Below the pieces are notes generated by a model. It saw only the letters and a program-made list of their open reading frames with translations. It was not told the DNA's origin and ran no database searches. Shown here one piece after another: positions 10,597 through 59,460 of a DNA stretch of 64,000 nt (within the stretch, counting starts at the first letter, position 1; each line of letters begins with the position of its first letter). The DNA is from a virus: the IMG/VR virus record IMGVR_UViG_3300048672_001051, positions 165,657 to 229,656 of that record. One strand, given 5' to 3'. The position numbers were made by a program, and so were the translations under genes.

Positions 10597-10598
10597 TC

Positions 10599-10982: not shown

Positions 10983-10983
10983 T

Positions 10984-11346
10984 TTAAAGCTCTCTTAATT
11001 TTAAATCGTAAATTGGCTTACCGTTAATTTTGAAACCTAAATAACCTGTGCCATGCAATTTATCTTTATTTACAAACAAATGTCCAATTAAACATTTGTT
11101 TAGACCTACTCGCTCACTTTTTGAATTTACGTAAAAAGTTATTTGACTACTCATATTTTGTGAAAAACCAGAAGTGTGTGAATTTAACTTTAAGTGTGGA
11201 CACAGACCTTTTAAAAACCTTGCATATATCCAAAAAAATTTAGTATCACAACTTTTAACAATAGCTTTTAAATTTTTAAAAATAGTGTCATTAGACTCAA
11301 ACTTAATTTCGTTTAAAAAAGTTAATATTTCTAATTCTTGATTCAT
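10984..11346 (-). CDS. tandem-family protein, unit 22
   Basis: 120 aa, compact. FW at 38-39 followed by YARFLK; TSGFS; FYVNSKSERVG; HG at 98-99; FKINGKPI; ends LREL. Near-consensus member. Confidence 0.88.
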   Translation of the reverse strand: MNQELEILTFLNEIKFESNDTIFKNLKAIVKSCDTKFFWIYARFLKGLCPHLKLNSHTSGFSQNMSSQITFYVNSKSERVGLNKCLIGHLFVNKDKLHGTGYLGFKINGKPIYDLKLREL

Positions 11347-11348
11347 GC

Positions 11349-11732
11349 TTATAAATGCCTTAAACTTGTTATAGGTCGACTATTACTTTTTATATAAAAT
11401 TTTTTTGTAAAATTAGAATAGCCGTGTGCATAACCGTCAAGTCTAAATGTTTCACAAGATTTTCTCTCTAAAAGAAAAGTTTTACCAAATTTTCTGCCAG
11501 TACTATTTAAATAGTAAGCCCAATTATTATCTGATCTTTTGGCAAGACCAGACTCATATTCATATAATCCAATAGGAAGTCTTGATTCATATTTAATATA
11601 TCTAGCTATTTCCCAAAATATTTTAAAGCATTTCTGCTTTAAAATATAATTAAGATTAATGCAAATAATTTTGTAGCGCGCAAAATTTTCAAAATATTCT
11701 AAAACTCTGGTTGCTTTTTCAGATTCATTCAT
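11349..11732 (-). CDS. tandem-family protein, unit 23
   Basis: 127 aa. FW at 39-40 followed by IARYIKY; EYESG; YYLNS; HG at 103-104; ends LRHL. Sister of unit 20. Confidence 0.88.
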   Translation of the reverse strand: MNESEKATRVLEYFENFARYKIICINLNYILKQKCFKIFWEIARYIKYESRLPIGLYEYESGLAKRSDNNWAYYLNSTGRKFGKTFLLERKSCETFRLDGYAHGYSNFTKKFYIKSNSRPITSLRHL

Positions 11733-11733
11733 A

Positions 11734-12132
11734 TTACAAGTACCTTAAGCTATTAACATGGTTAATAAAATTATTTAAAAAATATTTTTGCATAGTAAAA
11801 TTATAACCGTGAAGTTTGTTTTGAATAGTGAAATAACGTTGAGGATCTTTTCTATTGTCAACAACTTTACCTACTCGTCTGCTAATAGAATTAACATACG
11901 CATAGTAGGTATTTGAGCTGTTTATAGCTTTTCCAGCGCTATATTCTGCTAAGTCTAAAGTTATTAAAGATTGATATTTTAATTTCAAATATCTTACATA
12001 CTCCCAATAACGTTTAAAAATTCCTGTCTTTAAACCAAAATTATATTGCTCAGTTAAAAACTGCAAATTAAATTTCTCTTTAGAATTTTTAATTTGCATA
12101 AAAATATTTGCACCAAATGTCAAAACATTCAT
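11734..12132 (-). CDS. tandem-family protein, unit 24
   Basis: 132 aa. YW (42-43) followed by YVRYLK; EYSAGKA; YVNS; HG at 108-109; ends LRYL. Shares YW and the spacing around HGY with unit 27. Confidence 0.87.
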   Translation of the reverse strand: MNVLTFGANIFMQIKNSKEKFNLQFLTEQYNFGLKTGIFKRYWEYVRYLKLKYQSLITLDLAEYSAGKAINSSNTYYAYVNSISRRVGKVVDNRKDPQRYFTIQNKLHGYNFTMQKYFLNNFINHVNSLRYL

Positions 12133-12135
12133 CAG

Positions 12136-12570
12136 TTAAAGCTCTCTTAATTTTAAATTAAAAACATCTTCGTCATTAACACTAAATCCGAGACTATGAG
12201 TACCATGGCAGGTACTGTCTGTACAGTAGTACTTATGATCATCTGACGAGATATGCAAACCTATTGTAAAATTATCAGATTTTATATAACTAGTTGTTAT
12301 AAGTTTTATCGGATCTATAATAGCACCTACTGGGTACTTATTATAAAATTTATCTAAGTCTGCGTACCAACTAAATATATCATATGCATATCTGACTACG
12401 CCCCAAAAAAAGACTGAATTTAGAGGTTTTTGAGTTGCAATAAAATCTAGCCTATTTACAATATCTATAAGTGTTGGTGAACACTCACCTTCAATACTTA
12501 TTTTCACTATCTCTAAAACTTCTTTGAAGTATTTAACAACCTCTAAACACTCTTTTAATTTCAAATCCAT
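12136..12570 (-). CDS. tandem-family protein, unit 25
   Basis: 144 aa. FW at 55-56 followed by VVRY; NKYPVG at 77-82; HG at 122-123; ends LREL. Belongs with units 19 and 28. Confidence 0.87.
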   Translation of the reverse strand: MDLKLKECLEVVKYFKEVLEIVKISIEGECSPTLIDIVNRLDFIATQKPLNSVFFWGVVRYAYDIFSWYADLDKFYNKYPVGAIIDPIKLITTSYIKSDNFTIGLHISSDDHKYYCTDSTCHGTHSLGFSVNDEDVFNLKLREL

Positions 12571-12571
12571 A

Positions 12572-12964
12572 CTATAAATGCCTTAAATGCAGGTCAATCA
12601 TGTCGCCATTAATAATAAAATAACTTTTATCGAGAGTATTACTTTGTCCATGGCTTGTACCTTTAAAACGAAAGCTGTGAGTTTTAATCCAGCCGGCTGC
12701 TACACAATTACCTAGTCTTATACCTGAAGTTGTACAGTAAAATTTTCCAAAAAATTTATTTGGTACTTGGCTAAAACCTTCAGAATATTTTTTTAAATCT
12801 ACATTTTTCGTATGACAATTTTTTAAATAACGAGCTGCTTGCCAAAATACTTTAGCACTTCTTTCAATATTAATGACATTTAATAAAATTTTATAAGCTT
12901 CCTCATTTTCTTTTTTAAAGTCTGTTAAAACTTTAAAAATTTCTAACGCTTGAACTTCATTCAT
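12572..12964 (-). CDS. tandem-family protein, unit 26
   Basis: 130 aa. FW at 40-41 followed by AARYLK; SEGFS; HG at 105-106 (SHGQ, as in unit 18); FIING; ends LRHL. Confidence 0.88.
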   Translation of the reverse strand: MNEVQALEIFKVLTDFKKENEEAYKILLNVINIERSAKVFWQAARYLKNCHTKNVDLKKYSEGFSQVPNKFFGKFYCTTSGIRLGNCVAAGWIKTHSFRFKGTSHGQSNTLDKSYFIINGDMIDLHLRHL

Positions 12965-12966
12965 AT

Positions 12967-13347
12967 TTACAGATACCTGAGAGATTTGATACGATTAGGA
13001 ATACCGTTTAAATAATATTTTTTATCTATTTGGTCATAGCCGTGAAGCTCACCTTTAATATAAAAATATTCACGATTATCAAAAATAGCGCGACCAAATC
13101 TTTCGAGAGAGCTTGATAAATATCCTGGACGTCTAGACTCTGAATTAAATATAGGTCCAGCAGTGTATTCTTTTAAATCTATTTCATGTCCAGCACACGC
13201 TTTAAAAAATCTCAGTATCATCCAGTATTTTTTAAAATTGGCAGTTTTTAATGCCAATTTAAATTCGTCTTTTAGTTCACTGCCTAGCTTATGACGCGTG
13301 TCCGGAATAAGTTGAAAAATATGCTGTGCAAATAGTTCTTCTCTCAT
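12967..13347 (-). CDS. tandem-family protein, unit 27
   Basis: 126 aa. YW at 41-42 followed by ILRFFK; YTAG; HG at 102-103; YYLNG; ends LRYL encoded with CTG-AGG style codons that keep the SD. Start shares one base with the unit 28 stop. Confidence 0.87.
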   Translation of the reverse strand: MREELFAQHIFQLIPDTRHKLGSELKDEFKLALKTANFKKYWMILRFFKACAGHEIDLKEYTAGPIFNSESRRPGYLSSSLERFGRAIFDNREYFYIKGELHGYDQIDKKYYLNGIPNRIKSLRYL

Positions 13348-13799
13348 TATAACTCTCTTAGTCTTAAAGTATTTTTTAGTGCGCGATCATTTATATTGAA
13401 ACTAATACTATTATTAATACTGCAAGTCCCATGCTTCATATCTTTAAGTCTATAACTTGTACTCTCCAAGTAATAATCCAAACCTATTAGTTTAAAATCT
13501 GTTGTAAGATAACTTACAATTTTTAAATCTGTCGGTGATCTAGCCAAACCTGCAGGATATTTATTTAAAGTTTTGTCGAAATAATAAAAATAATTTGCCA
13601 AATTTAAATAGACATAACGGGTTATCTGCCAAAAACAAATAATACTTGGACTAGGAGATTTAAAAATGTAGTCTAAAATTTTACAAGCAAGCGATAATTC
13701 ATCAATATATTTTATACGAACATTTTTAAGCATTTCAGGCGTTTCTAAATATTCTTTAAAATATCTTAAGATTTTTTCAGAGTCTTCTAGTTGTGTCAT
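13347..13799 (-). CDS. tandem-family protein, unit 28
   Basis: 150 aa. FW at 56-57 followed by ITRYVY; NKYPAG at 79-84; HG at 123-124; FNIND; ends LREL. Subgroup with units 19 and 25. Confidence 0.87.
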   Translation of the reverse strand: MTQLEDSEKILRYFKEYLETPEMLKNVRIKYIDELSLACKILDYIFKSPSPSIICFWQITRYVYLNLANYFYYFDKTLNKYPAGLARSPTDLKIVSYLTTDFKLIGLDYYLESTSYRLKDMKHGTCSINNSISFNINDRALKNTLRLREL

Positions 13800-13801
13800 A
13801 A

Positions 13802-14179
13802 TTACAAATCTCTCAGTTTTAAATTAGAATTTAAAACACAATTATTTATTTTTAAAATAAATATTTTTGAAGCCTTATTAACATACACGCCGTGCATTCC
13901 ACCGTTATTTTGAAAAAATTTTAAATTAATATTGTCATATTCGCCGAAAGACCTGAGATAACTATTAAAATAATATTTTCGATTAGTGCCAGGCGATACA
14001 TACAAACCAGCTCTTGTTAGAAAATTTGGCCGTACTGGACGGCCAACATCATATTGTAATTCTCTTAAAACACCTAGGAATTTAGTTGTCTCACCGTCAG
14101 CTAACATTTTTAAACATAAAATATATGCATACGTATTTTTCGGAATATTTTGTAATAAATCTAAAAATAATATTTTCAT
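13802..14179 (-). CDS. tandem-family protein, unit 29
   Basis: 125 aa. The N-terminal half is divergent and hydrophobic, and FW is FL (34-35). YYFNS, FFQNN and HG (96-97) are intact; ends LRDL. Start overlaps the unit 30 stop. Confidence 0.85.
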   Translation of the reverse strand: MKILFLDLLQNIPKNTYAYILCLKMLADGETTKFLGVLRELQYDVGRPVRPNFLTRAGLYVSPGTNRKYYFNSYLRSFGEYDNINLKFFQNNGGMHGVYVNKASKIFILKINNCVLNSNLKLRDL

Positions 14180-14577
14180 TATAAATGCCTTAATTCTCTA
14201 GTTTTTACATCACGGCTGTTAATAATAAAAATAAAGCCTCTCTCAATGTCAAAAACCCCATGTTTTCGACTTTGTTTGTAATGCCTTCTAGCTACACTAT
14301 TAAATTTAGCCATACCAATTACTTTGTCTTGTTTGTTTACATAATAATGATAATTACCTAATATTGATGTAGCTAAGCCTGAACGCATGTGGCCTATATC
14401 TACACCCGAAGGCTTTATAGCTTTATGGTAATTATAATGTCTAATAATCTCCCAAAATTTTTTAAAATTGTTAGTAGCAATTAAACTTTCTAATTTTCTA
14501 GTAGTTTTTTTGTCAATACTTGGTTGATTATACTCTTGTATAATTTTTAAAATTTCATAAGGATTTGTAGTAATCAT
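14179..14577 (-). CDS. tandem-family protein, unit 30
   Basis: 132 aa from the ATG at 14577 with AAAGG 8 nt upstream; a GTG at 14586 is in frame. FW at 41-42 followed by IIRH; HG at 106-107; FIINS; ends LRHL. A short insertion separates it from the SD module at the end of unit 31. Confidence 0.85.
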   Translation of the reverse strand: MITTNPYEILKIIQEYNQPSIDKKTTRKLESLIATNNFKKFWEIIRHYNYHKAIKPSGVDIGHMRSGLATSILGNYHYYVNKQDKVIGMAKFNSVARRHYKQSRKHGVFDIERGFIFIINSRDVKTRELRHL

Positions 14578-14598
14578 TTGCCACACCTTTGTTAATAT

Positions 14599-14985
14599 TT
14601 ATAAATACCTTAGATTTTTTTTGTAAAAAAAATCATTATTAATATACATGGTAGTAATATTATTCAGGAAAGCCATGCCGTGAAAATAATTATTTTTAAA
14701 AAATAAACATTCTTTATTAATACCAGTCTTGTGTAAACCTATTCTTAAGCCTAAGGAGTTAATATAAAAACTTTCATTGCCTGAGTTTAGGCTAACAAAA
14801 CCGCTTGCCTTACTTCCTAGCGGTATTTTTAAATCATAATTTTGATTAACATACCGACATACTTCCCAAAATTTTTTAGTATTATTTTGATAAATCAATT
14901 GTGATAGTATTGCAGGGTAATCTTTTAAAGTAATATACTTTTTTGTATATTTTTCAACTTCTTTTATAATTTCTAAGGGTTGCAT
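14599..14985 (-). CDS. tandem-family protein, unit 31
   Basis: 128 aa from the ATG at 14985, which follows the unit 32 stop; the longer in-frame ATG at 15018 lies inside unit 32. FW at 39-40 followed by VCRYV; FYINS; FFKNN; HG at 102-103; ends LRYL. Confidence 0.85.
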   Translation of the reverse strand: MQPLEIIKEVEKYTKKYITLKDYPAILSQLIYQNNTKKFWEVCRYVNQNYDLKIPLGSKASGFVSLNSGNESFYINSLGLRIGLHKTGINKECLFFKNNYFHGMAFLNNITTMYINNDFFYKKNLRYL

Positions 14986-14987
14986 TT

Positions 14988-15383
14988 CTAGAGATTCCTT
15001 AAAGACTTTGTTGGGCATTCAGAATTATTAATATAATTTTGAAAATAAGAATTCACAGTACGAACTCCGTGTAATTTTCTATTTTTAAAAAATAATTTTG
15101 CTTTATGATGGATTGATAAACCCACCACCTTACCTTTACTATTTAAATAGTAACTACTAGATAAGTTATGCATACAAGCTAAGCCCACTAAACGTGGGCC
15201 TGTAATATATTTTAAATCAAATTCATTTTTTAAATATCTGTACAGTTCCCAAAATTCTTTAACATTTTTAGTAGTACTTAAAAGATTGTAAACATAATGA
15301 TTACAGTCAGCAGGATCTTTTAAAATTAATTTTAAAAGATCATATATTTCAATAATTTCGTGTTGTTCAATTGTCTTAGTCAC
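14988..15383 (-). CDS. tandem-family protein, unit 32 (GTG start)
   Basis: 131 aa, with GTG as start directly after TTAAGGTATTTATAA of unit 33. FW at 44-45 followed by LYRYLK; YYLNS; HG at 105-106; ends LRNL. Confidence 0.86.
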   Translation of the reverse strand: MTKTIEQHEIIEIYDLLKLILKDPADCNHYVYNLLSTTKNVKEFWELYRYLKNEFDLKYITGPRLVGLACMHNLSSSYYLNSKGKVVGLSIHHKAKLFFKNRKLHGVRTVNSYFQNYINNSECPTKSLRNL

Positions 15384-15752
15384 TTATAAATACCTTAAGC
15401 TCCGCCATGTCAGTAAATTGCCTTTAAGCCAGAATTTATGAAATCTATCATCGCAACCATGCCTATAGCCTTGACAATAAAAAACTCTATCTCGAGAGTT
15501 TCTTGCAAATCCAAATTCTCTAGCTTCTCTATTAATATAACTTAAAAAATTAGAATTAGAGTTATAAATTTTACCAGCAGTATACTCACCTAAAATTAAA
15601 TTAAACTTTTCTGTTTTTTTAATTCTACGAGCTACACTCCAAAATTCTTTAAAATTTTGGTTAAGAAGACATTCTTGCAAAAGTCTAGTGTCAATATGGT
15701 AACTAAATCTTAAGTGGTCTAAAACATTTTTAGCTGATTCTAATTCAGTCAT
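15384..15752 (-). CDS. tandem-family protein, unit 33
   Basis: 122 aa. FW at 37-38 followed by VARRIK; GEYTAG; HG at 98-99; FWLKG; ends LRYL. Closest in its central part to units 24 and 27. Confidence 0.87.
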   Translation of the reverse strand: MTELESAKNVLDHLRFSYHIDTRLLQECLLNQNFKEFWSVARRIKKTEKFNLILGEYTAGKIYNSNSNFLSYINREAREFGFARNSRDRVFYCQGYRHGCDDRFHKFWLKGNLLTWRSLRYL

Positions 15753-15753
15753 A

Positions 15754-16230
15754 TCATAAATACCTTAGCCTAGTCACATTACTTCGTATTCCATCAATAT
15801 AAAAATCAGGTGCATTGAATCTTTTATATGCGCCATGTCTAATATTATTTTTAAAATAACATGATTCATTATCAGACCTTTGACACAGACCTATCATGCC
15901 ACTATTTTTTAATTTATAATAAAAATTATTATAACGCATAAACTTACCATTAAAATAATGTTGTAAGTTTATTTCAGGGCAATAAGAAGTACTAATATAT
16001 TTTATTTTAGGCCAAAAATTTTTGGTATTATTGTCTGATAGAGCATTTTTAAAAAGTCGCAAAATATCTACAGACTTTAAAGATCTTTGATAAACAGTTC
16101 TAACTATATCTTCACGAGTGTGACACTTTTTTAAAATTTCTTTTGTATTACAAGGATTGTAAAAAAAAGGAAAAGGACTTGGTGACAATATGGTTGAATA
16201 AGCCATAGACGTAATATCTGTAGGGTACAT
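15754..16230 (-). CDS. tandem-family protein, unit 34
   Basis: 158 aa with a Pro/Ser-rich N-terminal extension of about 30 residues. FW at 72-73; YYKLKNSGMIG; YFKNN; HG at 132-133; FYIDG; ends LRYL. Uses a CGGA SD in the gap after unit 35. Confidence 0.86.
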   Translation of the reverse strand: MYPTDITSMAYSTILSPSPFPFFYNPCNTKEILKKCHTREDIVRTVYQRSLKSVDILRLFKNALSDNNTKNFWPKIKYISTSYCPEINLQHYFNGKFMRYNNFYYKLKNSGMIGLCQRSDNESCYFKNNIRHGAYKRFNAPDFYIDGIRSNVTRLRYL

Positions 16231-17154: not shown

Positions 17155-20100
17155 TTACATACCTAAACTTTTCATTAGTGCATCTAAGTCATCTGGCGGA
17201 ACGTTACCATTTGAATTAGCGCCTTCTTGAATGTTAAGGTCACTAAACTCTTCAGGATCTGCACAGAAAGCCTCAAATTTCTGACGGATCTCGAAAAGTT
17301 TTGAAACAAGTGAACCGAAATATGTGTTTTCAGAAATGAATGTCTCCCACATTTTCAATTCACTTTCGTCTACCGGAATTCGACCCTTATTGTATAAAGA
17401 GATAAAATTCCGACAACCTTTTAAAGCCTTCGAATGAGAACCCCAAGTGATAATAAACAAAAGTTTATTAATATCACCAAGGGTCATCCGATATTCAGGT
17501 TTTTGCAATTCAGCAATAATAATCTTACGATTTTCAGGCAATGCCATATTGCGCAGAAAGAACATTTCAAAGTCCTTACTACCATTTTTGGCATGCTTAA
17601 TTGCTTCAATAACTTTTTCCTGAACCAAACGAGTATAAGCAAAAGAGAATTGTTTAAATTCTAAATCGCTAAGGGGCTGCAATAAAACAGGGTTAGGGAC
17701 ATTAGCAGTTTTGTATAAACCTTTATTTGCGACAAAGAATGCTTGATAACACTGCATTAAAGCAGTAGCAGTCCAAATGTCTAGGGTGGCAGGGCCAATA
17801 TTAGCTTTAGCAACAGAGGCATTAAGCAAATACTGTTGATAGCATGGAATGCCATTTTGAGGTGCCATTGGAACTTTGTTCAGTTTATAAACATGTTGAC
17901 CAATAGGTAACAACTTGTTAGTTGTTTCATACTCACCATCAATATACTCTTCATTCCAACATAATTCTTGCTCAAGAGGTTGAGGCCGAACAAATCGACG
18001 AAGAATTTCTTGACCAATTGGATTAGGAATAGCTAATGGTAGAGCATCACCATCACAATCACTTCGTGCTTCCAAAGCAATAGTAGGGCTGATTAACAGA
18101 ATGTCACTATTGTACCGAGGATTCAAATACGCGTGCAAATCAATATTATGCACTGTCTTCAAATACATTCGGAACAAGTTAACATCCCAAATACGAGGTA
18201 CTTGTAGCTGCATTTCCCAAAGTACAGGATTACGCACTGCTAAGCTACGAGGAACTTCGTTTAAAGCACGATCTACAGCTTGTTTGTCTAAAGTGCCATG
18301 CTCATTTAAACGCGCTAAGATGTCAATCTGAGAACTAACAAGACGTTCCCAATCATCACCAAAGGCTTCATTCGAGATACGTTCAAATTTAGACTGACTC
18401 ATAACAACAACAACATCAGGTGGTAGATAATGATCAACTACCTGTTTCATACCAAAGCCTTTCATACGAGGCTTGATAAGATGTTGAATTACCATTTGAG
18501 CGGCTTCTTCGTCTGAATAAAGCGTCGATTTAACTGCACGCAAATACTCGTCTAAAGCATAAGACTGTTGTCGATTGTTGTCAGGCATTAACATGTTTCG
18601 GAAAACTTTATTATACCCTTTCAGGTATTTATAGTTTTCACGAACAAGTCGCAAAATCTTAGACAATCGAATTAAAATGTCTGGATAATTTGTTTCGCCA
18701 CTCATAAGTCGACCAGTAAACCGGTTCAACAAATAAGCACTAGGCATCCGGACACAAGGGCCGCCGAGAGAGCTGAAATCCAAATAAAAACCATTCGGAT
18801 TATATTCAGCATTTAACAAGCGAGAATTAGATGGAAAAATTGCCTTCTTTGTTAATACAAAGTCGTCAGGTCCATACATAGGATTCTTACTAATTAAATC
18901 GGCAGGGGTGATAATTGGAAGTTCATCAACTTCTGAAAATACAGCGCGATCATCTGTTAGAATTTTAAACAATTCATAAACAGCTTTAATAGAATCAGGA
19001 TCACGATAACTTTCAAAAATATGATTTGCAAGTTCAAGCGATACGCCACCTTGGAATGTTAACATCTTCAAGGTTTCAAACATTACAGATTGAGGTTTCC
19101 AATCTGCGTAGATGTCAGTAATTTCAGTGTAGTTGATATAGACAAGTCCAATCTCAACGTTAACTTCATTACCAAAATTATCTACATATTTGTATTCAGG
19201 CAAAGACTGAGACGCAGCATTAATTTCAGCTTCATCCAATGAATTTAAATAGCCTGAATTACCACGTTTAACACTGGGTTTATAGTAGCCCAGCTTAACA
19301 GCTAGAGCAGCTCGTGCTAAAACAATGGTGTTTGATGCAGCTTTAACAGCATTCATACCAGTAACAATGTCCGGTACGAGAAAATCTTTTTCATTCCAAG
19401 TGTTATCTGTCGAGGAATCTCCAAGATATTCAGAAGCATTTGGATAACGTTCAGCAATAGCAGAGTCATCAAAAACATTCTTAAACATAATCTTACCAGT
19501 ATTGGTAAGAACTTTAGTAACACCTTTAAGTCCGGTGCTACTTGTGATACGGCAGTTACCTGCACGGCAAATACCTTTAAAACGAATTTTAAAAGAATTT
19601 GCAATGCTTGTCGCATCAATAGAAAGTACAGTAATGGTTTTAAAATTGTACAAGTCGATAGGACTTGACAAGTTATTCAACCCAACTGTAAATGTTTTAA
19701 AAGAAGGCTGATAAGTCTTGCCAGCTTCTACTAAAACTTCAGAAAAAATTTCTTCAATACTGAAAGAAACTTCTAAAGCTTGAGCTGCAATAGTTGCTGC
19801 AATTTCAATTTCACCGGAAACAAAACGTTTAGTGTCTGGGTCCATTGGATGAAATACAATAAAAGCTTCACGTTGGCAATCGTCTTTACGAGTAAAGACG
19901 TCACCATTAATGATATAATCCTGTGTAAAAACAGAATTACTAGGGTTTTCAATCTTTAGATGCTCTCCTAAAGAATGAGTTTTAAGACGAGCAGCTAACG
20001 ACTGTTTATTATCGAAAATAGTCAAGATCGAAGGAACTGTATCTCGAAGATTTTCAGAATAACCTGTGTTGCGAAACATAAAAGGCTGTTCACCTGTAAA

Positions 20101-20778
20101 CAGGCTAACAGTAGCAGTTTTAGACATACTACCTTCAGATGTCAGATGAATCTGACAATCACGGATAATATTTGGCCAATCTTTTTCACGAGGTTGTGAA
20201 TTAGAAATAATTTGGCCAAGAACAAACTTACCATTATTGATTTTGTCCAGATGTTGATTAAAACTAAGAATAACAAAAGAATGTTCAGATTTTTTCTGAG
20301 CATTAAAACTTACAGGCTTGGTATAATTTGCAAAAGACTGCAAATTATTAATATCAGTGTTTAACAAACCTGTATAGATGTCTTTGCTGTACTGTTGATA
20401 CATATTAAGACGATCTACTAAAATAAGATAAAATACTTGATTTTGATTAAGAATCAAATAATTATGATGACCAAAATAATCAATTCGACTATTAGAAGTC
20501 GAGCTGACTTCTACGAGAAAAGGATAATACGTTGTCTGCACTGGTGCAGTGCTAGGTGAAAACAATGTTTTACGAATAATAACTTCCATTGCATGAGTAT
20601 CACTGCGAGGGAAAGCTATAATAACATCATCATCAGCATTAATAGAATAATTGCACAGCCCACTGTAACCTTGAGGCAGGTGTCCAATAAGTTCTTCAGC
20701 TGTGCAATTTGCCGGAATATCACGAAAGGCTTGTGTGCGTACAATACCATCCAAACGTGCAATCGGAAATGAAGACAT
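17155..20778 (-). CDS. single-chain two-barrel DNA-dependent RNA polymerase-like protein 1
   Basis: 1207 aa. Two motifs match the double-psi beta-barrel catalytic modules of cellular-type RNA polymerases fused in one chain, as in YonO- or QDE-1-like enzymes. Around residue 418 it has STGLKGVTK, like the beta-barrel G-x-K-G. At 907-911 it has D-C-D-G-D, like the beta' D-x-D-G-D metal site. Further on, A-K-A-N-I-G (K991) matches the second polymerase in this window. It would synthesise RNA from phage DNA by two-metal catalysis. The start has AAGGA 7 nt upstream. The next upstream gene (116 aa) is 22 bp away. What else it could be: a diverged, non-catalytic relative. The third and fourth aspartates look intact, so activity is plausible. 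Confidence 0.72.
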   Translation of the reverse strand: MSSFPIARLDGIVRTQAFRDIPANCTAEELIGHLPQGYSGLCNYSINADDDVIIAFPRSDTHAMEVIIRKTLFSPSTAPVQTTYYPFLVEVSSTSNSRIDYFGHHNYLILNQNQVFYLILVDRLNMYQQYSKDIYTGLLNTDINNLQSFANYTKPVSFNAQKKSEHSFVILSFNQHLDKINNGKFVLGQIISNSQPREKDWPNIIRDCQIHLTSEGSMSKTATVSLFTGEQPFMFRNTGYSENLRDTVPSILTIFDNKQSLAARLKTHSLGEHLKIENPSNSVFTQDYIINGDVFTRKDDCQREAFIVFHPMDPDTKRFVSGEIEIAATIAAQALEVSFSIEEIFSEVLVEAGKTYQPSFKTFTVGLNNLSSPIDLYNFKTITVLSIDATSIANSFKIRFKGICRAGNCRITSSTGLKGVTKVLTNTGKIMFKNVFDDSAIAERYPNASEYLGDSSTDNTWNEKDFLVPDIVTGMNAVKAASNTIVLARAALAVKLGYYKPSVKRGNSGYLNSLDEAEINAASQSLPEYKYVDNFGNEVNVEIGLVYINYTEITDIYADWKPQSVMFETLKMLTFQGGVSLELANHIFESYRDPDSIKAVYELFKILTDDRAVFSEVDELPIITPADLISKNPMYGPDDFVLTKKAIFPSNSRLLNAEYNPNGFYLDFSSLGGPCVRMPSAYLLNRFTGRLMSGETNYPDILIRLSKILRLVRENYKYLKGYNKVFRNMLMPDNNRQQSYALDEYLRAVKSTLYSDEEAAQMVIQHLIKPRMKGFGMKQVVDHYLPPDVVVVMSQSKFERISNEAFGDDWERLVSSQIDILARLNEHGTLDKQAVDRALNEVPRSLAVRNPVLWEMQLQVPRIWDVNLFRMYLKTVHNIDLHAYLNPRYNSDILLISPTIALEARSDCDGDALPLAIPNPIGQEILRRFVRPQPLEQELCWNEEYIDGEYETTNKLLPIGQHVYKLNKVPMAPQNGIPCYQQYLLNASVAKANIGPATLDIWTATALMQCYQAFFVANKGLYKTANVPNPVLLQPLSDLEFKQFSFAYTRLVQEKVIEAIKHAKNGSKDFEMFFLRNMALPENRKIIIAELQKPEYRMTLGDINKLLFIITWGSHSKALKGCRNFISLYNKGRIPVDESELKMWETFISENTYFGSLVSKLFEIRQKFEAFCADPEEFSDLNIQEGANSNGNVPPDDLDALMKSLGM

Positions 20779-49553: not shown

Positions 49554-49732
49554 AATGAAACTCCTTAATAAGAACAGGCTCATTACACCTGTACACACTT
49601 TTGGAATGGAGAGTGTGCAAAAGAACTCCAAGGAATTATTCCACATATGGATATTATAAAACTAATACCCATAAATTGAATAACTTAAGTAGTTCTTTAT
49701 TTATACTGCCGAACTACGTGAGCAGTCTTCTT

Positions 49733-51124: not shown

Positions 51125-54100
51125 TTAAGCTTGTAAAGCTTGGATTAAACGGTACATCATTGACTCTGTATACATGTCGTATACTTTGCCATCAATGACC
51201 GCACCTTCAGCATCTTTCAACAAGACAAAGTTACTTGTCAATGGTGATTGATCGCTGAACATCAACGCATCGAGGGATGGTGCGCTCAAGTGCAAGGCAG
51301 CTACTTGACGCATCACTGCCATGAACTTAGCGCAGAACTGGTCTACGCTCATGTTCAATGAGCTGAAGTTGAACAGCAAGCCATTTGTGAAAACATCCAC
51401 AACAGCCTCTTTAGCCGCAGCTAGCCGGGCGATATACTCATCACGGCTTTCATCTTTTTTCTGCAAGATGAAACCAGGACGTATTATCTCGCTGACAGCC
51501 AGCTTCGAGCCAAGGCTTGAATGCTTCATGCCGTTCATAGCCTCTTCCTGCACCAACACACCAATTACGTATGCAACGGTGTTAAAGAATTCCTCATGCA
51601 TAGCTGCAGGAATGTCCGCCAATCCTTTACCATCCATACGTACAGAAGTATGGTATGTGAAGAATCGTTGTAGGTTCTTGGTATAAGAACCTACGTTGGC
51701 TTTCGCATCAGCAGATTCCTTGATAGTTGCAAACAACTCAACCCAAGAGAACTGATTAACGCTTGCGCCGCCAAAGCCAAGAGCGTTCATCTCTTTGGCC
51801 AGGTAGTTTTGATGCCACTTAGCAGCGAAGTACTTATCATCAAGCACCTTAGCTTCAAAAGTGTTCAACTTCACTTTACCATGTGAAGTCAAGCGAACCA
51901 AGTCACCGTCTGCATCATTTTGCAATGATAACAAGTAGTTAGCTGGCGCGAACACCGCGCAGTTGAAGATCTCAGCCATGTCTTTGTTCAACATGTCTTC
52001 TTCTACGAAGTTGGCCTCGGCTTCAGCTGCGATGCGCTTAGCTTTCAGGTAAGCGTTGCTGTCACGGCCTTGACCAGCTTTTTCAAACTTGGCGTTGGCC
52101 CGGTTAAGCTGTTGCAGCGCGTGGTGACGCTTAGGCAGCTTACTGTGTACCATCATACCAGTTTGTAGCTCTGGCATGATTACAGGATGCTTGGTAGCCA
52201 GCATTGTGCCACCATTACGCATGGCCAGGCACCACAGCTCATTGGCTTTAGAAGCCCAAGGAGCGCAGATCAAAGCGCCATACATACCCTCAACTTTCAG
52301 GCGACCCAACTGCTTACCCAAGATCTCGCATTGGGTGTATTGGAGCATGTTGACCGAGAAGTTCTCGACAAATGCTCCGATTGTTGGTTTGGCTTTTAAG
52401 TTCAAGGTGTACTCATCAACCTCATACTGACCAACCAGACCGCGAACGGCCTTGAGGAAGGTGTTAAAGTACCCTTGACTTTGAATCATTGTTGCATAGG
52501 CAGATGTTTCAGCCATATTCCCACAAAGGATGCGTTGCCCTGTTAAGTAGGTCAGTGGTGTACCTGCCTTGTCAGTCAACTCAACCCAACGTACATTAGG
52601 ATCGTTGATACCTAATACACAGGCAACGTCCACAAAGAACGCGCGGTGAACATACCCTTCACCTAATGTGTCTAGGTCTAGCCCATATGTTGCCACCAAA
52701 CGGGCGATCTTACCAACAACAGAAGCTAGTGGTAGTGTATATACCCCAGCGGCTGTTTTGTCGCTCAGACGACCCTGCACCCAATCTAGGGCCATGTTGA
52801 CGTCGTCTTTCTTGTCAGAATTAAGCTCGAGAGACATTGCATGTTGCAGCATGTCTTGAACCATCTGTTGGCCGTGAGTGGTACGCATCATGTCGAACTC
52901 GCTCGACACGACGTTAACCACTTTTGGTTTGCGAGTGATAACACCAGACTCGCGCAACTCACGTAGCGCATCTGGCAGTGGAGCCATAGAGCCAGCGTCT
53001 GCCAACTCTGCGACTTTGTTAAACACGACAGCTATCAGCAATGGATCATCGCCAATGATGTCATGTTTCTTATACGCTGCTTCCAACAACTTAGCAGCGT
53101 TATCAATGTAGCTGTTGACCACAAAGTCACGGTCAACAAACTTATAACCATGACTAATTGTGTAATGGTTAGTCGCAACCATCTGTACATCGTTCAGCAC
53201 ACAGACTTCGACCTCAAGTCCGTTGATCTCAACAACTTCCCAAATTGAGTTCAACTCGGTTGGATCGTTGATGATGTCCATAACTTCGCAGTTAGGATGT
53301 TTGGCTTGATACAGACCAGCCAAACCACCTTTATATGAAGCTTTTGAAGCCAGAGATACGCCAGCATCAGCCAAGTCTTTATCGACAAAACCTGCCCATG
53401 AGAGGGTTGACTTAATCAAGCCTTCGGTATTATCGCCAACAGCACGACAGAAACCAACTGTCAGCATTGTATCGCTGTCAGCCAAAATATTACCTGCCAC
53501 AAGAGCGTTACGCAGCTCAGTGGCAGTCTTAAGGTTGCGCTTGGCAACAGCTTTAGCCTTACCGGCTTTAGACGCCTTTACAGCGTCGTAGGCAGCTGTT
53601 GCAGCGTCAAGTGCTACGTTAGGGTCACGCAACACCCAAACCTCACCAAAGGCGAATCCGACGCCGTCCTTATTGCACAGCTTCTCAAAGCGAGAAGCTG
53701 TGTGCTTGATGCTCAAGGCTGACAGCAGTGAACCATCAGCTTGTTCAGTCAGCATGTAGCCTAACTGTTCATGCTCACGAATGTAACCGTCAGCAGCGTG
53801 GCTGCCAGATACCAAGCCATAAACACCTGGCTTGAAATGCTCCAGATACTGGTTTACAGGGTACTTACTGTAAACCATTGGATGTGAAACGGGTGTAACA
53901 GCACCGTTCGCTGCGCGAAGTACGAGGTGCTTCGCTGGATCAGCGATCAGCGCTTCGTAAGACAGGTTGCCAGCGCGCAGGAGGATCAATTTCTCGATCC
54001 AACTCAAGCTCATGAGCTTGATATTAAAGCCACGAGCACCAGTGTCGTGAAACACATGGATACGGCTCAGCGCATCAACCACTTCAGCAGTGGTATTACT

Positions 54101-54760
54101 GCTAGTGATCTTGACACTAGCTTGAACAAAGCCTAGCACAGATTCAACTGCACTGTACTTCATTGCAGTGGCCTTCATGCCATGACCTAGGCGGATATTA
54201 ACACCACCTTTGTCAAACTGAGGCTTTTCCGCAATGTTACGGCGGAAAGCCTCAGCCATCGGCTGAATTGGGTACGAGTCCAATTGGCCCGCGCACTTCA
54301 CAGCCCACTCTATTAGAGCGAGCTTGTCATCTGTCAAGCCGTGACCGAAATAGACCAACACTTTGGCGATGGAGTTAGAGTACTCCAGGCCACGGGTGTT
54401 GACGAATATTGAATAAAGCTCAAGCATCGCCCGAGCCTTGTTCAAACCTCCGACAACTTCTAGGTCCTCCTGATCCAATTCCACTTTCGTGAAACCAGAT
54501 ACAGCAGGGGCGTTAATGACACGCAAGATGTCACCCTTCGCAACGGCCATTGATTCTACATAGTAGAACTCTTTGGCCATGTGCTGGATGGTGGCATCCA
54601 GCTTATCGCGGTCGACAAGGTGTGGGTACACCTCAGCACGGTCTTTTTTGGAGCCGGAAACATAGGCCAAAACAGCGGCCTTGTTGGACCAGTTCAGGAC
54701 TGATTGATACATAGCTGTGGTCTTCATGGTTGAAGTTCCTTTGGTGGTTGAGTTAGTCAT
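51125..54760 (-). CDS. single-chain two-barrel DNA-dependent RNA polymerase-like protein 2
   Basis: 1211 aa, close in length to protein 1. S-Y-K-G-G (K477) corresponds to the first barrel's Lys loop; D-A-D-G-D (949-953) is the metal-binding motif; A-K-A-N-V-G (K1020) follows. The Lys-to-Asp spacing is 472, compared with 489 in protein 1, so they are old paralogues with the same layout. An early/late or virion/non-virion division of labour, as in giant phages, is inference. The ATG at 54760 has AGGAG 9 nt upstream; an ATG at 54727 is an alternative. The next upstream gene ends 3 bp before it. Confidence 0.7.
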   Translation of the reverse strand: MTNSTTKGTSTMKTTAMYQSVLNWSNKAAVLAYVSGSKKDRAEVYPHLVDRDKLDATIQHMAKEFYYVESMAVAKGDILRVINAPAVSGFTKVELDQEDLEVVGGLNKARAMLELYSIFVNTRGLEYSNSIAKVLVYFGHGLTDDKLALIEWAVKCAGQLDSYPIQPMAEAFRRNIAEKPQFDKGGVNIRLGHGMKATAMKYSAVESVLGFVQASVKITSSNTTAEVVDALSRIHVFHDTGARGFNIKLMSLSWIEKLILLRAGNLSYEALIADPAKHLVLRAANGAVTPVSHPMVYSKYPVNQYLEHFKPGVYGLVSGSHAADGYIREHEQLGYMLTEQADGSLLSALSIKHTASRFEKLCNKDGVGFAFGEVWVLRDPNVALDAATAAYDAVKASKAGKAKAVAKRNLKTATELRNALVAGNILADSDTMLTVGFCRAVGDNTEGLIKSTLSWAGFVDKDLADAGVSLASKASYKGGLAGLYQAKHPNCEVMDIINDPTELNSIWEVVEINGLEVEVCVLNDVQMVATNHYTISHGYKFVDRDFVVNSYIDNAAKLLEAAYKKHDIIGDDPLLIAVVFNKVAELADAGSMAPLPDALRELRESGVITRKPKVVNVVSSEFDMMRTTHGQQMVQDMLQHAMSLELNSDKKDDVNMALDWVQGRLSDKTAAGVYTLPLASVVGKIARLVATYGLDLDTLGEGYVHRAFFVDVACVLGINDPNVRWVELTDKAGTPLTYLTGQRILCGNMAETSAYATMIQSQGYFNTFLKAVRGLVGQYEVDEYTLNLKAKPTIGAFVENFSVNMLQYTQCEILGKQLGRLKVEGMYGALICAPWASKANELWCLAMRNGGTMLATKHPVIMPELQTGMMVHSKLPKRHHALQQLNRANAKFEKAGQGRDSNAYLKAKRIAAEAEANFVEEDMLNKDMAEIFNCAVFAPANYLLSLQNDADGDLVRLTSHGKVKLNTFEAKVLDDKYFAAKWHQNYLAKEMNALGFGGASVNQFSWVELFATIKESADAKANVGSYTKNLQRFFTYHTSVRMDGKGLADIPAAMHEEFFNTVAYVIGVLVQEEAMNGMKHSSLGSKLAVSEIIRPGFILQKKDESRDEYIARLAAAKEAVVDVFTNGLLFNFSSLNMSVDQFCAKFMAVMRQVAALHLSAPSLDALMFSDQSPLTSNFVLLKDAEGAVIDGKVYDMYTESMMYRLIQALQA

Positions 54761-55217: not shown

Positions 55218-57350
55218 TTATGCAATCACCTGAACACAGTTAGTGCCATCATAGTCCATATAGCTGTACTCACTAATGGATTTAACGGTACCTCGGGCCA
55301 CGTTGACCGTGTCGGCATACCTTGCAACTTGGCTTGTTACACCGTAAGAAGTTGCTGACAAGTACACTGGTACACCTACAGCTCGGACAAAGTCCAAAAT
55401 CATCGGCGTTACCACGCTTGCCGATATTTGTGAACGACCTTCGATAGAGTCGATCATGTACCCACCACATGCGGTTTTAAATACCCACATGTGTCCAAGG
55501 ATGGTGCTACCTTGGCGGAACACGTAGTTAGCCGACTTAGAATCAGTCCAGCTTTCTACGCATACAGCATGGCCTGCACCGCCAAGCTTCTGGCAGCAAG
55601 AGGTCAGCTCTCCGATGTACAAGTTGCGTACATCATTCTTAGCCAACTTCTCCATGACGAACTTGTCATTCTCTGCCACAATTTCTGGCAGTTCACAAAC
55701 AACATGGGAGTTGTTTGTTTTCACGGCAAAAGTCAGTGCCGCCTGAACATCAGGAGTTACCAAGTACTGCTCAGCAGTCTCTTTGGACACTCCTCGGCTC
55801 ACCAGAGTGTTGACAATTGCAGTCTTTGGCGAGTTGCCCAAAGTCCAATCAATTTCAAGCATGTGCTCAAAAATGATTGTTTGCAATTGCTCAGTAGAGG
55901 CAACTTGCTTCTTGAATTTCTCTGGCATTGCAGCCGCACTTGCGTACAAATGCTCGCTACGCCAGTCGATGTGGCGCATCAAATAAATTGCACGGTACTC
56001 TTCCAACGTATCTGCCGCAGCACCCAAATAGTGGCTCATGCGGATTTTTGCAATGACAGCCTCGCCATTGCAGTCGGTGTGCTTGCTGATACGCAAGGAC
56101 TTATCGACTTTAACAAATCCTTCTACTACAAGCATATTGAGCTCGTGCAGATCTTTCACTCCAGCACGCGTCACTAATGTGCCAGCTGGCAAATGTTTTG
56201 CCAACCCTAAGGCTGCAAAAGTGATGAAAGGGTTGAACGCCGAACACACTGGCGTCATTTTGGCCTTTCTCACATGACCTTCTGCGAGGGCTGGCAACAT
56301 CTTGGCCCCGTCCCACCGTGCCTCGTTATACTCGGTCGGGAGCATTGCGTTTTTCTCGCAAAACTGACCACTTGCATACAACCACGCAAGGTCAGTAGTT
56401 GGGTACGAGGAAACTTTCACGCCCCAGTCTGCCTGGTTGCGGTAATACGTAGCCGACTCTTCCAACATAACGACTTGGCTCTCAGTGCCACGGTAGTCTT
56501 GTAGGATATCGAGCGCTACACTTTTTGTAGCTGGGTACCCAGCAGACTCGAGTGCCCAAAAATTTGGGTACTCTTTTGTAAGCTCGCCGTTGCTTATGTT
56601 CAAGCTGTGAACATAGCCGATTAGGCTATGGCCGCAAGTCTCCAAAGACTCTAAGCTTTTCTTGCTGACCGGGTAGGCTCTGTTCACATCGGATTTGAGC
56701 TGGTCTAAAGCAATCAACTGCAGCTTAGGCCAGGCAGCCCGTTCCCCATACAAGCTATACATTAAATCGTACAGCCCAACAACAAAATTATGGGCCGCGT
56801 CAGATCCAACGTCTGGAGCCACTTTATAGTACATGTTGTCGAGTAGACATCCATAGTACTTAAAGCTGTCGACAGCAGCAGATATATCTGCTGACCAGAG
56901 GCAATGGTCAGCCAAGGAGTTAACTTCCCAGCCAGCAAACGCGTTGAAGCGTTTATCCCAGTAACTACAGCGAGCTATGTCGCAGAATTCATCGCGAATA
57001 TCCGCAGTGATCCTAACTGTCATGTCGTGTCTTGTCACGACAATGTTCCACATGTCCAATTCAAAGCCATTTACGGCTGTAATTTGAACATCGTGATTGT
57101 AGCCATCATGGTCGCACAAGGCGTGAATAGCCGCCGCATCGCCAGCGAGTTCTGCTGGGATCAACACCATACGGCTAGATGTATCATAGCCGTAGTCCGG
57201 ATCACACACTGAGAAGCATGTGATCTCAATGTCGATTTGCTCGCCGGCCAACAGCCCACCGATAGCTTGACGACGATCAGCTTTCAAAGCAGCGTAAGCT
57301 GCTTTTTGTGCTGAACGCATGGCTGACTCTTTACGGGTCATATTAGTCAT
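55218..57350 (-). CDS. 710-aa protein, unknown; C-terminal Cys-Cys domain
   Basis: From the ATG at 57350 with AAGG about 11 nt upstream. The long central part is helical. Residues about 580-660 contain ELTSCCQKLGGAGHAVC and a later strand W-V-F-K-T and D-S-I-E, resembling a C-terminal domain I have seen in large phage hypothetical proteins, possibly acetyltransferase-like. Co-directional with polymerase 2 (153-aa gene between); a transcription cofactor is possible. Confidence 0.45.
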   Translation of the reverse strand: MTNMTRKESAMRSAQKAAYAALKADRRQAIGGLLAGEQIDIEITCFSVCDPDYGYDTSSRMVLIPAELAGDAAAIHALCDHDGYNHDVQITAVNGFELDMWNIVVTRHDMTVRITADIRDEFCDIARCSYWDKRFNAFAGWEVNSLADHCLWSADISAAVDSFKYYGCLLDNMYYKVAPDVGSDAAHNFVVGLYDLMYSLYGERAAWPKLQLIALDQLKSDVNRAYPVSKKSLESLETCGHSLIGYVHSLNISNGELTKEYPNFWALESAGYPATKSVALDILQDYRGTESQVVMLEESATYYRNQADWGVKVSSYPTTDLAWLYASGQFCEKNAMLPTEYNEARWDGAKMLPALAEGHVRKAKMTPVCSAFNPFITFAALGLAKHLPAGTLVTRAGVKDLHELNMLVVEGFVKVDKSLRISKHTDCNGEAVIAKIRMSHYLGAAADTLEEYRAIYLMRHIDWRSEHLYASAAAMPEKFKKQVASTEQLQTIIFEHMLEIDWTLGNSPKTAIVNTLVSRGVSKETAEQYLVTPDVQAALTFAVKTNNSHVVCELPEIVAENDKFVMEKLAKNDVRNLYIGELTSCCQKLGGAGHAVCVESWTDSKSANYVFRQGSTILGHMWVFKTACGGYMIDSIEGRSQISASVVTPMILDFVRAVGVPVYLSATSYGVTSQVARYADTVNVARGTVKSISEYSYMDYDGTNCVQVIA

Positions 57351-57366: not shown

Positions 57367-57552
57367 TTAAGCTGCAAGAGCTTTGATGGCCATTTGATGA
57401 TCAATCATCGCCTCAGCAGCATCGTGCAGATGCTCAGACAATAATGACCAGTCGATTAGTTGATCTTTAGTGTTACAATCAACGGCGTAGGTAACGAAGT
57501 TCAACAAAGGAAGAAAATCCTTTGCTGAAACTTTAACTGCGCAGGCCAGCAT
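57367..57552 (-). CDS. unknown small protein
   Basis: 61 aa, helical, with AAGG 10 nt upstream; TAATG overlap with the preceding gene. Confidence 0.5.
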   Translation of the reverse strand: MLACAVKVSAKDFLPLLNFVTYAVDCNTKDQLIDWSLLSEHLHDAAEAMIDHQMAIKALAA

Positions 57553-58334
57553 TATGCTGCTACCTTCAAGGCAGCACGCAGGGAGCGGCTTGTAAGAGCC
57601 GCTGCGTTTGCACTCAAGCCATATACCGCCTCAAAGTCGCTGGCAGCCAGAGCTGCTTTCTTACTCAGAGCTGCAACGCGTGCAGCTCCTGCTTTGGTGA
57701 CAACACCACCGTCTTGGGCCGCAACCCACACGAGGTGGGCGCGGGCCTTTTCAGCACGCTTGACCATACGCAGGATTTCTCCTGCGGTTTTGACAGCTTC
57801 TGCTGTCAGTTTACGAGCAGCTGGCGTTGCAGCTTTGACAGCTGCAACTTTAGCTTTTGGTACATACACTTCCGCCGCAAGACGGTGGGTGTACACGTTT
57901 CGACGTACATCCCGGGCTTTGAAGCCAGTGCCACGTTTGGCACGTTTGGCTGCCTTGATGCCACAAGCGTGGCTGCCTGTCGCAGCGATTGCTGCGACCA
58001 CTGCCTTACGGCGAGCGGTTACAACCTCACGGGCGCTGTGCCCGTACTTAGCCGCAACAGCGGCGCTTGCGGCCTTACGGGCTACATTACGTGCAGCACG
58101 TGCAGCAGCGCTGGCTATGTTGCCAGCACGGGTTTTGCTACCGTCCGAACGACGGTTACGTTTGGTGCGTGCTGCGTTACGAGCAGCCTTGCGAGCTGCT
58201 CCTTCAAGTGCACCGTCAATGATGCTTGGGTAAACCCAAGCACCAGCAACTTCGTTAACAAGTTGGGTGTCAAAATCGACACCCATGATGACTGCGAGTA
58301 GTGCAAGCACTGACTCGATGAAGAAATTTTCCAT
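57552..58334 (-). CDS. Ala/Lys/Arg-rich protein with hydrophobic N-terminus
   Basis: 260 aa from MENFFIESVLALL, with AAGGAG 7 nt upstream. A hydrophobic N-terminal segment (4-17) leads to a very long Ala/Arg/Lys region (residues 50-230) built of A-A-R-K-A-A-type repeats, like histone H1 or AlgP-type DNA-binding tails. The GC-rich low-complexity DNA gives long ORFs in other frames. It may bind phage DNA or membrane. Its leader carries hammerhead ribozyme 1. Confidence 0.6.
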   Translation of the reverse strand: MENFFIESVLALLAVIMGVDFDTQLVNEVAGAWVYPSIIDGALEGAARKAARNAARTKRNRRSDGSKTRAGNIASAAARAARNVARKAASAAVAAKYGHSAREVVTARRKAVVAAIAATGSHACGIKAAKRAKRGTGFKARDVRRNVYTHRLAAEVYVPKAKVAAVKAATPAARKLTAEAVKTAGEILRMVKRAEKARAHLVWVAAQDGGVVTKAGAARVAALSKKAALAASDFEAVYGLSANAAALTSRSLRAALKVAA

Positions 58335-58409
58335 GATTTTGCTCCTTAACAATGAGGTTGGGATCATTAAACCCAAACTGCCTAGTACAGTGGGATAGGA
58401 TAACTAGGA

Positions 58410-58464
58410 TGCTGTTTCGTCCTTGATTGGACTCATCAGTTAGGCAAAGAAGCCTAATACAGCA
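58410..58464 (-). ncRNA. hammerhead ribozyme 1 (type III)
   Basis: The complete conserved core is present on the minus strand: CTGATGA (58439-58433), GAAA (58418-58415) and the U-A before cleavage. Stem I TTAGGC/GCCTAA with loop TTCTTT; stem II GTCC/GGAC with a 6-nt loop; stem III TGCTGT/ACAGCA. Predicted self-cleavage between 58458 and 58457, between the 55-aa and 260-aa genes. Confidence 0.85.
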
Positions 58465-58502
58465 GGTAGTTTTTTATAGAAGCATACCTAGGCTTCTCTC
58501 TC

Positions 58503-58670
58503 TTATTTAAGCGCGAGGATTTCTCCTGTGCGCTTAATGAAGAACAGATTAAACCCAACAACTTCCGAAGAAGTTGTTGGGTTGACAATGCTAGCTACGA
58601 ACACGCCTTGGCCGTGCACGGCCAAGGCGTGTGTGTAGTCAGCGACTACGCGAACTTTTGGCTTGTTCAT
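58503..58670 (-). CDS. 55-aa protein with palindromic coding sequence
   Basis: MNKPKVRVVADYTH onward to EILALK; SD AAGGAG 8 nt upstream. It contains a 32-bp perfect palindrome (58601-58632) and a 14-bp hairpin with a UUCG-type loop (58552-58565 with 58570-58583). It sits between ribozymes 2 and 1. Coding and RNA structure may both matter. Confidence 0.55.
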   Translation of the reverse strand: MNKPKVRVVADYTHALAVHGQGVFVASIVNPTTSSEVVGFNLFFIKRTGEILALK

Positions 58671-58760
58671 ATGATTTTCTCCTTGAATGAAAGGCTCATT
58701 ACACCTTATCTCTACCTAGTATCGAGATGAATTTATCTAGGATGCTGATGTTACATGTTT

Positions 58761-58830
58761 GCCTCATCAGTGCATAAGGAACAACCTATATGCAGACGCC
58801 CTTATAAGAATCTATAAGGGCGTTTCGGCC
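58761..58830 (-). ncRNA. hammerhead ribozyme 2 (type II)
   Basis: GAAA (58826-58823) lies at the 5' side; stem III is ACGCCCTTATA/TATAAGGGCGT (58796-58806 with 58813-58823); the cleavage site is after C at 58795 (GUC); stem I TGCATA/TATGCA with a bulged extension; CTGATGA (58770-58764); stem II only GCC/GGC. It starts directly after the TAA stop of the 138-aa gene. Confidence 0.78.
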
Positions 58831-59247
58831 TTATTTCTGGAGCTTATCTAGCTCCTCAGCGAGGAGGTCGCTAAGCTCAACTTTGATCAGCGCTAGCTGA
58901 TCAAGACGGGTGTGGTGACGCGCGTGATACGCGTCATTGAGGGCCTCTTGATGTTCCTTGCGGAACGAGGTCGTAACCTCCTCATGGTAGTACGAGTGGA
59001 GTTTGTACACCAAACTTATTGCATCCTCTCGGGATGCAATTGCAGTGAGAGCCCATTCACGGGCCATCAGCGAACGGCCAGTATTAAGACGGTCAAGACC
59101 GTCACGGACAGCAGCCTCGTACAGTGCTTTGCGAGCAGCGCTCGCATTGTCACGGATGGCGGTGGTACGTTTGGCGTTGCTTGGAGCAACCTCCAGAATA
59201 ATGACGAGCAATGCCAACAACAAGAGTACAACACAATATGACAACAT
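58831..59247 (-). CDS. exported or membrane-anchored helical protein
   Basis: 138 aa, SD AAGGA. Starts with a hydrophobic segment (MLSYCVVLLLLALLVIILEV), then a long charged helical region suggesting coiled coil. Flanked on both sides by hammerhead ribozymes. Confidence 0.6.
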   Translation of the reverse strand: MLSYCVVLLLLALLVIILEVAPSNAKRTTAIRDNASAARKALYEAAVRDGLDRLNTGRSLMAREWALTAIASREDAISLVYKLHSYYHEEVTTSFRKEHQEALNDAYHARHHTRLDQLALIKVELSDLLAEELDKLQK

Positions 59248-59285
59248 AATGGTATTCCTTTGGTAAGACAGTGATAGACAGGTTT

Positions 59286-59345
59286 GCCTTCATCAGTGCA
59301 TGAGTAACCAACTCATACAGACCTTACAATGTAAGGTTTCGGCAC
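59286..59345 (-). ncRNA. hammerhead ribozyme 3 (type II, variant)
   Basis: GAAA (59340-59337); stem III ACCTTAC/GTAAGGT; cleavage after C at 59320; stem I TGTATGAGT/ACTCATGCA with one G-U pair; CTGATGA (59296-59290); stem II GCC/GGC with one extra A at 59289 between core and stem. The extra base may weaken it. Confidence 0.68.
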
Positions 59346-59388: not shown

Positions 59389-59460
59389 TCATTTGTACTC
59401 AGGGAAGAGTACTTTGATCCACTGCTCGTTCTCTAGAACGAGGATTTGAATTTGGTCCAT
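59389..59460 (-). CDS. 23-aa peptide inside an inverted repeat
   Basis: MDQIQILVLENE onward to FPEYK; AGGAG 7 nt upstream. The end of its coding sequence forms a long hairpin (59382-59400 with 59407-59424) and a second stem lies within it (59425-59442). A tiny leader peptide or a structured RNA with a chance ORF. Confidence 0.4.
   Translation of the reverse strand: MDQIQILVLENEQWIKVLFPEYK

Follow-up and report, generated by a model that had tools for sequence, protein, structure and literature searches.

Three hammerhead ribozymes lie in the first gaps of a leftward row of phage genes, where they probably cut the leftward transcript, within its leader and first gaps, into separate pieces with their own 5' ends, which would slow decay and free small cistrons. 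Judged from their sequences, all three are true hammerheads, of types II, II and III, and they lie on the minus strand of the window (the whole stretch of DNA analysed, 64,000 nucleotides), in the same direction as the genes. We scanned the window with a descriptor made of the CTGATGA core, GAAA, a UH site and three stems, in all three permutations, and obtained exactly three sites in 64 kb. HHR1 (59272-59343, minus strand; cut site 59320/59319) is a type II hammerhead with a 3' pseudoknot flank and the layout GCC-GAAA-CCUUAC..GUAAGG-UC^UGUAUGAG..CUCAUGCA-CUGAUGA-AGGC. HHR2 (58746-58829, minus strand; cut site 58795/58794), also of type II, reads GCC-GAAA-CGCCCUUAUAG..UUAUAAGGGCG-UC^UGCAUA..UAUGCA-CUGAUGA-GGC. 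Both have the CUGANGA and GAAA cores in the order GAAA-III-UH-I-CUGANGA with stem II open, as expected of type II. HHR3 (58410-58464, minus strand; cut site 58458/58457) reads UGCUG-UA^UUAGGC..GCCUAA-CUGAUGA-GUCC..GGAC-GAAA-CAGCA, a core with stems I and II closed, stem III open and a UH site, which makes it type III. Dinucleotide-matched shuffles (200 per strand, 25.6 Mb) gave no match to the descriptor, ruling out a chance origin of the three. The earlier note had placed three hammerheads, one of type III and two of type II, in the gaps between ORFs of 23, 138, 55 and 260 aa; the descriptor (three matches against none in the shuffles) and our own covariance model (E around 1e-9) bear this out, and the scan puts the cut sites exactly where the note had them.

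Comparison with Rfam, the check that the earlier note had suggested, gave lower scores. HHR2 reached 35.4 bits with RF02276 (Hammerhead_II; E 3.6e-5), under the gathering score of 37, and HHR3 reached 28.8 bits with RF00008 (Hammerhead_3) in a search of a short stretch and, with the whole record searched, 36 bits (E 4e-7), both below the gathering score of 48.5. HHR1 was not listed by the Rfam search at E<=1. None of the three window hammerheads thus passed the curated cut-off, which is a score limit and not a structural feature. Taken literally, this is the outcome that the earlier note had named as a refutation, but it is overruled by an independent model and by the 56.2 bits of a type II hammerhead in a relative of the phage. 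For the independent model, a covariance model, we used only 43 type II hammerheads from other viral contigs, none of them from this record. In the window, it recovered HHR2 with 55.0 bits (E 2.7e-10) and HHR1 with 51.9 bits (E 1.3e-9), and nothing besides; in a further 458 kb, made up of what remained of the record, one complete relative and a portion of another phage, ME3, it found one more site, in the 242.6-kb relative. The descriptor, Rfam and own-model scans found no further hammerhead in the rest of the 229.7-kb record, where the few long-span descriptor matches have implausible loops.

The virus record is 229,656 bases long, and the window makes up its last 64 kb. The genes of the record include a T4-type terminase, portal, UvsX, SbcC-like, DNA polymerase and RIIA proteins, and from these we assign it to a tailed phage. 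Among named phages, Acinetobacter phage vB_AbaM_ME3 comes nearest to it, as a distant relative (portal 42%, terminase 39%). The terminase large subunit (record positions 9746-11941) seems to carry an intein-like insert within Walker A (GRRC131...HN266-TGKT), common to ME3 and absent from the Moorella phage protein. Fifteen scattered tRNA genes lie on the minus strand at 131-148 kb of the record. At window positions 248-16230 (minus strand), about 38 ORFs of much the same length (117-210 aa) follow one another end to end, with a G+C of about 0.27; ME3 has a run of small ORFs of similar length. The 1207-aa protein encoded at 17155-20778 (minus strand) is related to ME3_309 and, C-terminally, to ME3_307; its counterpart in ME3 appears split, with ME3_308 between.

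The hammerheads belong to a row of genes that runs leftward from about 59.46 kb; other genes run rightward from 59.86 kb, and the divergent region that separates the two is AT-rich. The leftward order is a 23-aa ORF, HHR1, a 138-aa gene, HHR2, a 55-aa gene, HHR3, a 260-aa gene, and then genes of 61, 710/728, 153 and 1211 aa. The 23-aa ORF (MDQIQILVLENEQWIKVLFPEYK; 59389-59460, minus strand) is a weakly supported, possible leader peptide, with a Shine-Dalgarno-like site, TAGGAG, upstream of the ATG as its sole support. The 138-aa gene (58831-59247, minus strand) has no known family, the 55-aa gene (58503-58670, minus strand) holds two perfect 14-bp inverted repeats within its coding sequence, and the 260-aa protein (57552-58334, minus strand) is rich in Ala, Lys and Arg. 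HHR2 starts 1 nt past the stop codon that ends the 138-aa gene; the stop codons preceding HHR1 and HHR3 are further off, at about 45 and 38 nt, respectively. The junctions after the 260-aa gene, including those of the next large one (a 710-aa ORF at 55218-57350, minus strand, or 728 aa from a TTG start), are tight and carry no hammerhead. Hence, the claim that one sits at each junction of the operon holds for the first four ORFs and fails further on: as the row continues and no other hammerhead turned up in the record, these are the first three of many junctions.

Searches of Pfam and PHROGs with all proteins of the row returned nothing convincing. With tblastn against isolated phages, the 138-, 260- and 1211-aa proteins had no match and the 710-aa protein had three weak partial matches only (E 0.05-0.06); a search for related loci with the 260-aa, 728-aa and portal proteins found no relatives. 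The 1211-aa protein (51125-54760, minus strand) contains LGKQLGR, KHPVIM and QNDADGD motifs. It is weakly related to an 1144-aa protein of the 242.6-kb phage (25% over 115 aa, E 6e-4), with which the motifs LGKQLG and K.P.IM and a D.DGD-like triad align. By these motifs it could be a DxDGD-type RNA polymerase, an identity that found no support in the databases searched.

That phage provides the evidence for conservation. We gathered relatives by their terminase and scanned 37 records for hammerheads. Only one, the large relative (242,588 bases; best terminase segment 42% identical), has both types: the type II copy mentioned above, whose score exceeds the RF02276 cut-off, and a type III copy of 43.8 bits, below the 48.5 of RF00008. 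A type II copy of 32.8 bits is present in one other record of the 37, which is 29 kb long and had been fetched via the type II pattern as well. Both hammerheads of the large relative are on its leftward strand, beside a divergent region of the kind seen here and about 20 kb ahead of TerL, as compared with about 15 kb in our record if it is taken as circular. They flank a pair of genes of 155 and 1144 aa, the type III copy preceding the 155-aa gene and the type II copy coming directly after the stop of the 1144-aa gene, so the flanked genes differ between the two phages. Upstream of the leftward row of the relative, the divergent region also holds a tandem repeat (TCCTATCAAGCTGACTTTTTTATTCAT), at positions 19760-19940 of the fetched stretch.

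The type III copies of the two phages are letter-identical in stems II and III, and in stem I four of the six pairs are altered on both sides, that is, in a compensatory manner. When nine more viral type III copies were included, 98.7% of cells were paired (shuffles, 80.4%; slid controls, no more than 50%), and all but one of the 30 two-sided changes fell in stem I. Only stem I tests pairing in this set, because the pattern that found the nine copies fixes stems II and III. That pairing has been preserved at the matching site of a phage whose terminase is only about 40% identical argues against the ribozymes being selfish elements or relics of no use to the phage, as do their intact catalytic cores, their shared direction and their siting in gaps. 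What speaks for selfish or relic elements is that the small phage genes beside published clusters vary and have no known function (PMC3088659; PMC6155905), and that we found no hammerhead in ME3, from which it follows that hammerheads are not essential in the wider group. On balance, we consider ribozymes without a use very unlikely and keep the separation of cistrons as the preferred reading. Two distant phages with hammerheads at a corresponding site and with leader hairpins in common (see below), and ME3 without hammerheads, make a defined comparison with which to test whether the ribozymes separate cistrons and create new 5' ends.

Rows of two to eight hammerheads also occur in other viral contigs. 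Among the matches listed for the type II pattern, at least 26 of the 119 fetched viral stretches had two or more hammerheads, with up to eight in about 4 kb. In the 13 contigs with three or more, again among the matches listed, 39 of the 59 hammerheads fell outside same-strand ORFs, versus 16% of random points; the intergenic share of the hammerheads is likely a lower bound because the ORFs were called mechanically. Those 39 start at a median of 2 nt after the upstream stop and end at a median of 27 nt before the next start, and HHR2 fits this stop-codon spacing. Unrelated contigs have type III arrays, and mixed arrays of types I and III, at successive gaps. A hammerhead whose stem I and core (TGTATGAG.TGGTTACTCATGCACTGATGA) are nearly the same as those of HHR1 lies in an otherwise unlinked viral contig (stretch positions 7559-7630), by transfer or convergence.

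The position of HHR2 next to a stop codon, usual in viral arrays, would suit a switch in which cleavage is coupled to translation, to a ligand or to an alternative fold. The predicted folds offer such an alternative in HHR2, where CUGAUG pairs with a downstream CAUCAG, and this anti-core fold is the predicted minimum. The active fold lies 5.9 kcal/mol above the minimum in HHR2 and 1.3 in HHR1 (predicted without the pseudoknot), the median for 146 viral type II copies among the matches listed being 1.9 kcal/mol; in HHR3 the predicted minimum-energy fold is the active one. HHR2 may therefore cut slowly, and more slowly than the others if the predicted energies hold. A switch is unlikely: HHR1 and HHR3 have little competing structure, and of 137 viral type II copies among the matches listed, only 6 have the anti-core CATCAG (1.5 expected), a weak signal, so that we rejected it as a general feature of such copies. 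The same 137 copies put the pseudoknot in context. Pairing between loop I and the 3' flank of stem II has been described as common, not universal, in type II hammerheads (PMC3088659). It can form with 4 bp in both window copies (GGTT:AACC and TGTT:AACA), and, counted in this way, 57 of the 137 copies among the matches listed do not reach 4 bp.

From the computed ribozymes and their positions, the most likely consequence would be the separation of cistrons. The leftward transcript would probably start in the divergent region, near 59.5-59.85 kb, and each ribozyme would fold and cut the RNA in the cell during transcription. The upstream product would end in a 2',3'-cyclic phosphate, preceded in the type II copies by a strong stem III hairpin, and the downstream product would begin with a 5'-OH on the stem I hairpin. 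The resulting pieces would be a short leader with the 23-aa ORF, two RNAs of 525 and 337 nt that encode the 138-aa and the 55-aa protein, respectively, and a main mRNA beginning about 120 nt ahead of the 260-aa gene. Hairpin-capped 5'-OH ends, together with highly folded coding sequence, would slow decay, and the small cistrons could be expressed independently of the long downstream mRNA.

The same two ends could in principle be rejoined. The 525-nt RNA between HHR1 and HHR2 would carry stem I and CUGAUGA-AGGC at its 5' end and GCC-GAAA-stem III-GUC at its 3' end, parts that might form a chimeric hammerhead, join 5'-OH and cyclic phosphate and close a circle; or the flanks might join, skipping the cistron. 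Hammerheads can ligate, and by their letters the halves of the two type II copies appear compatible (GCC with GGC, 3 bp), a compatibility that is generic to type II. HHR3, being of type III, has none of the needed halves, so a circle can be drawn on paper for the 138-aa piece only. Since spliced or circular products were sought in other arrays and none was detected (PMC3088659), we regard excision and re-ligation as improbable, and cistron separation remains the reading that we favour.

The sequences downstream of HHR2 and HHR3 share a leader. That of the 55-aa gene (58671-58752, minus strand) consists of AGCATCCTAG..ACTAGG (HP-A, with a weak stem here), AAGG-TGTAATGAG-CCTT (HP-B) and AAGGAG, and that of the 260-aa gene (58335-58420, minus strand) of AGCATCCTAG, ACTG-TACTAGG-CAGT (HP-A), TTGGG-TTTAATGAT-CCCAA (HP-B) and AAGGAG, so that AGCATCCTAG, ACTAGG and AAGGAG are common to both. 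As two of the cut-off cistrons begin with this shared leader (HP-A/HP-B and Shine-Dalgarno), each ribozyme would act as a second promoter would, providing an own 5' end. The relative has the same leader twice, before the first leftward gene and after the type III hammerhead, and in both phages a hairpin NNGG-UGUAAUGAG-CCNN stands ahead of the ribosome-binding site. In HP-B, the hairpin nearest the start codon, the loop is kept (UGUAAUGAG, once UUUAAUGAU) and the stem varies (AAGG/CCUU, UUGGG/CCCAA, ACAGG/CCUGU twice and UAGG/CCUA), with two-sided changes at three pairs in a small sample of five leaders. A third window copy of HP-B (GGTGTAATGAGCC; 49577-49589, minus strand) precedes a Shine-Dalgarno and ATG with no hammerhead beside it. 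The two phages have four copies of GGTGTAATGAGCC, each of them preceding a start codon; 16 other records searched have none. A leader-pattern scan of viral contigs returned five contigs, with the real element only in the known relative; the other four lacked the hairpin and were discarded. The leader hairpin might be a protein-binding site. More tentatively, the hammerheads might be half of a modular mRNA-maturation device in a jumbo-phage lineage: the cut would expose a two-hairpin leader (one with a UACUAGG loop able to pair with an upstream CCUAG, the other with the UGUAAUGAG loop) read by a phage or host RNA-binding protein, setting the translation or stability of strongly folded cistrons.

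The strong folding of these cistrons was measured against synonymous-codon shuffling, with composition kept. The z-scores were -4.5 for the whole 138-aa gene (-5.6 for its middle 330 nt), -5.8 for the 55-aa gene, -7.6 for the 260-aa gene and, for the three large genes that come next (728, 153 and 1211 aa), -4.8 to -8.4; the 23-aa ORF gave no significant signal (z -0.85). Among the 232 ORFs of the record, the 260-aa gene has the lowest folding energy per base, with the 138-aa gene also at the bottom, and these two have the highest G+C (0.59 and 0.54); G+C climbs along the leftward row from about 0.27 to 0.5. In the relative, the leftward genes near the hammerheads gave z-scores of -3 to -10.8 (-4.3 and -7.1 for the flanked pair) with one exception at -0.8, and rightward genes were near zero. 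Perfect inverted repeats (arm of at least 9, loop of 3-20) were seen across the window (1-64000) at about 15 times the shuffle frequency, many of them inside genes. As inverted repeats exceed shuffles record-wide, we rejected the idea that hairpin-rich coding is unique to the ribozyme genes, which are the extreme of a record-wide richness. One guess is that strong coding folds protect the RNA from RNases.

As in the phage clusters that flank genes, the hammerheads of the window share one direction and lie between small genes, no more than a few kb apart. Compared with the families RF02276 and RF00008, the window hammerheads share core, stems and cleavage site, and the type II copies also the loop I/3'-flank pseudoknot, but score slightly to clearly under the cut-offs (35.4 of 37; 28.8-36 of 48.5). 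The theta (HDV-like) ribozymes of gut phages (PMC10879173) are likewise small self-cleaving RNAs in phage transcripts, but with a different fold and tied to tRNAs and recoding, not to mRNA junctions. The closest likeness is to the clusters described in prophages by Perreault et al. (2011, PMC3088659), where several hammerheads of one or more types, on the same strand, flank single small genes, as in the triple array around ardA of Agrobacterium tumefaciens. Three of those arrays cleave in vitro and one in E. coli, and they were proposed to process long phage transcripts into gene-length mRNAs; De la Pena's review links such clusters to varying small phage genes and leaves their role open (PMC6155905). 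The new processing system announced in the earlier note is thus not new, given these published phage arrays and their frequency in viral contigs: the arrangement belongs to a reported kind and extends a known phenomenon. Unlike in those clusters, here the genes and the phage lineage are others, hairpins recur in two of the downstream leaders, and two ribozymes have been kept at the matching site of a distant relative. What is new is this conservation in a relative, the shared leader hairpin and the exceptionally folded coding mRNA around the ribozymes.
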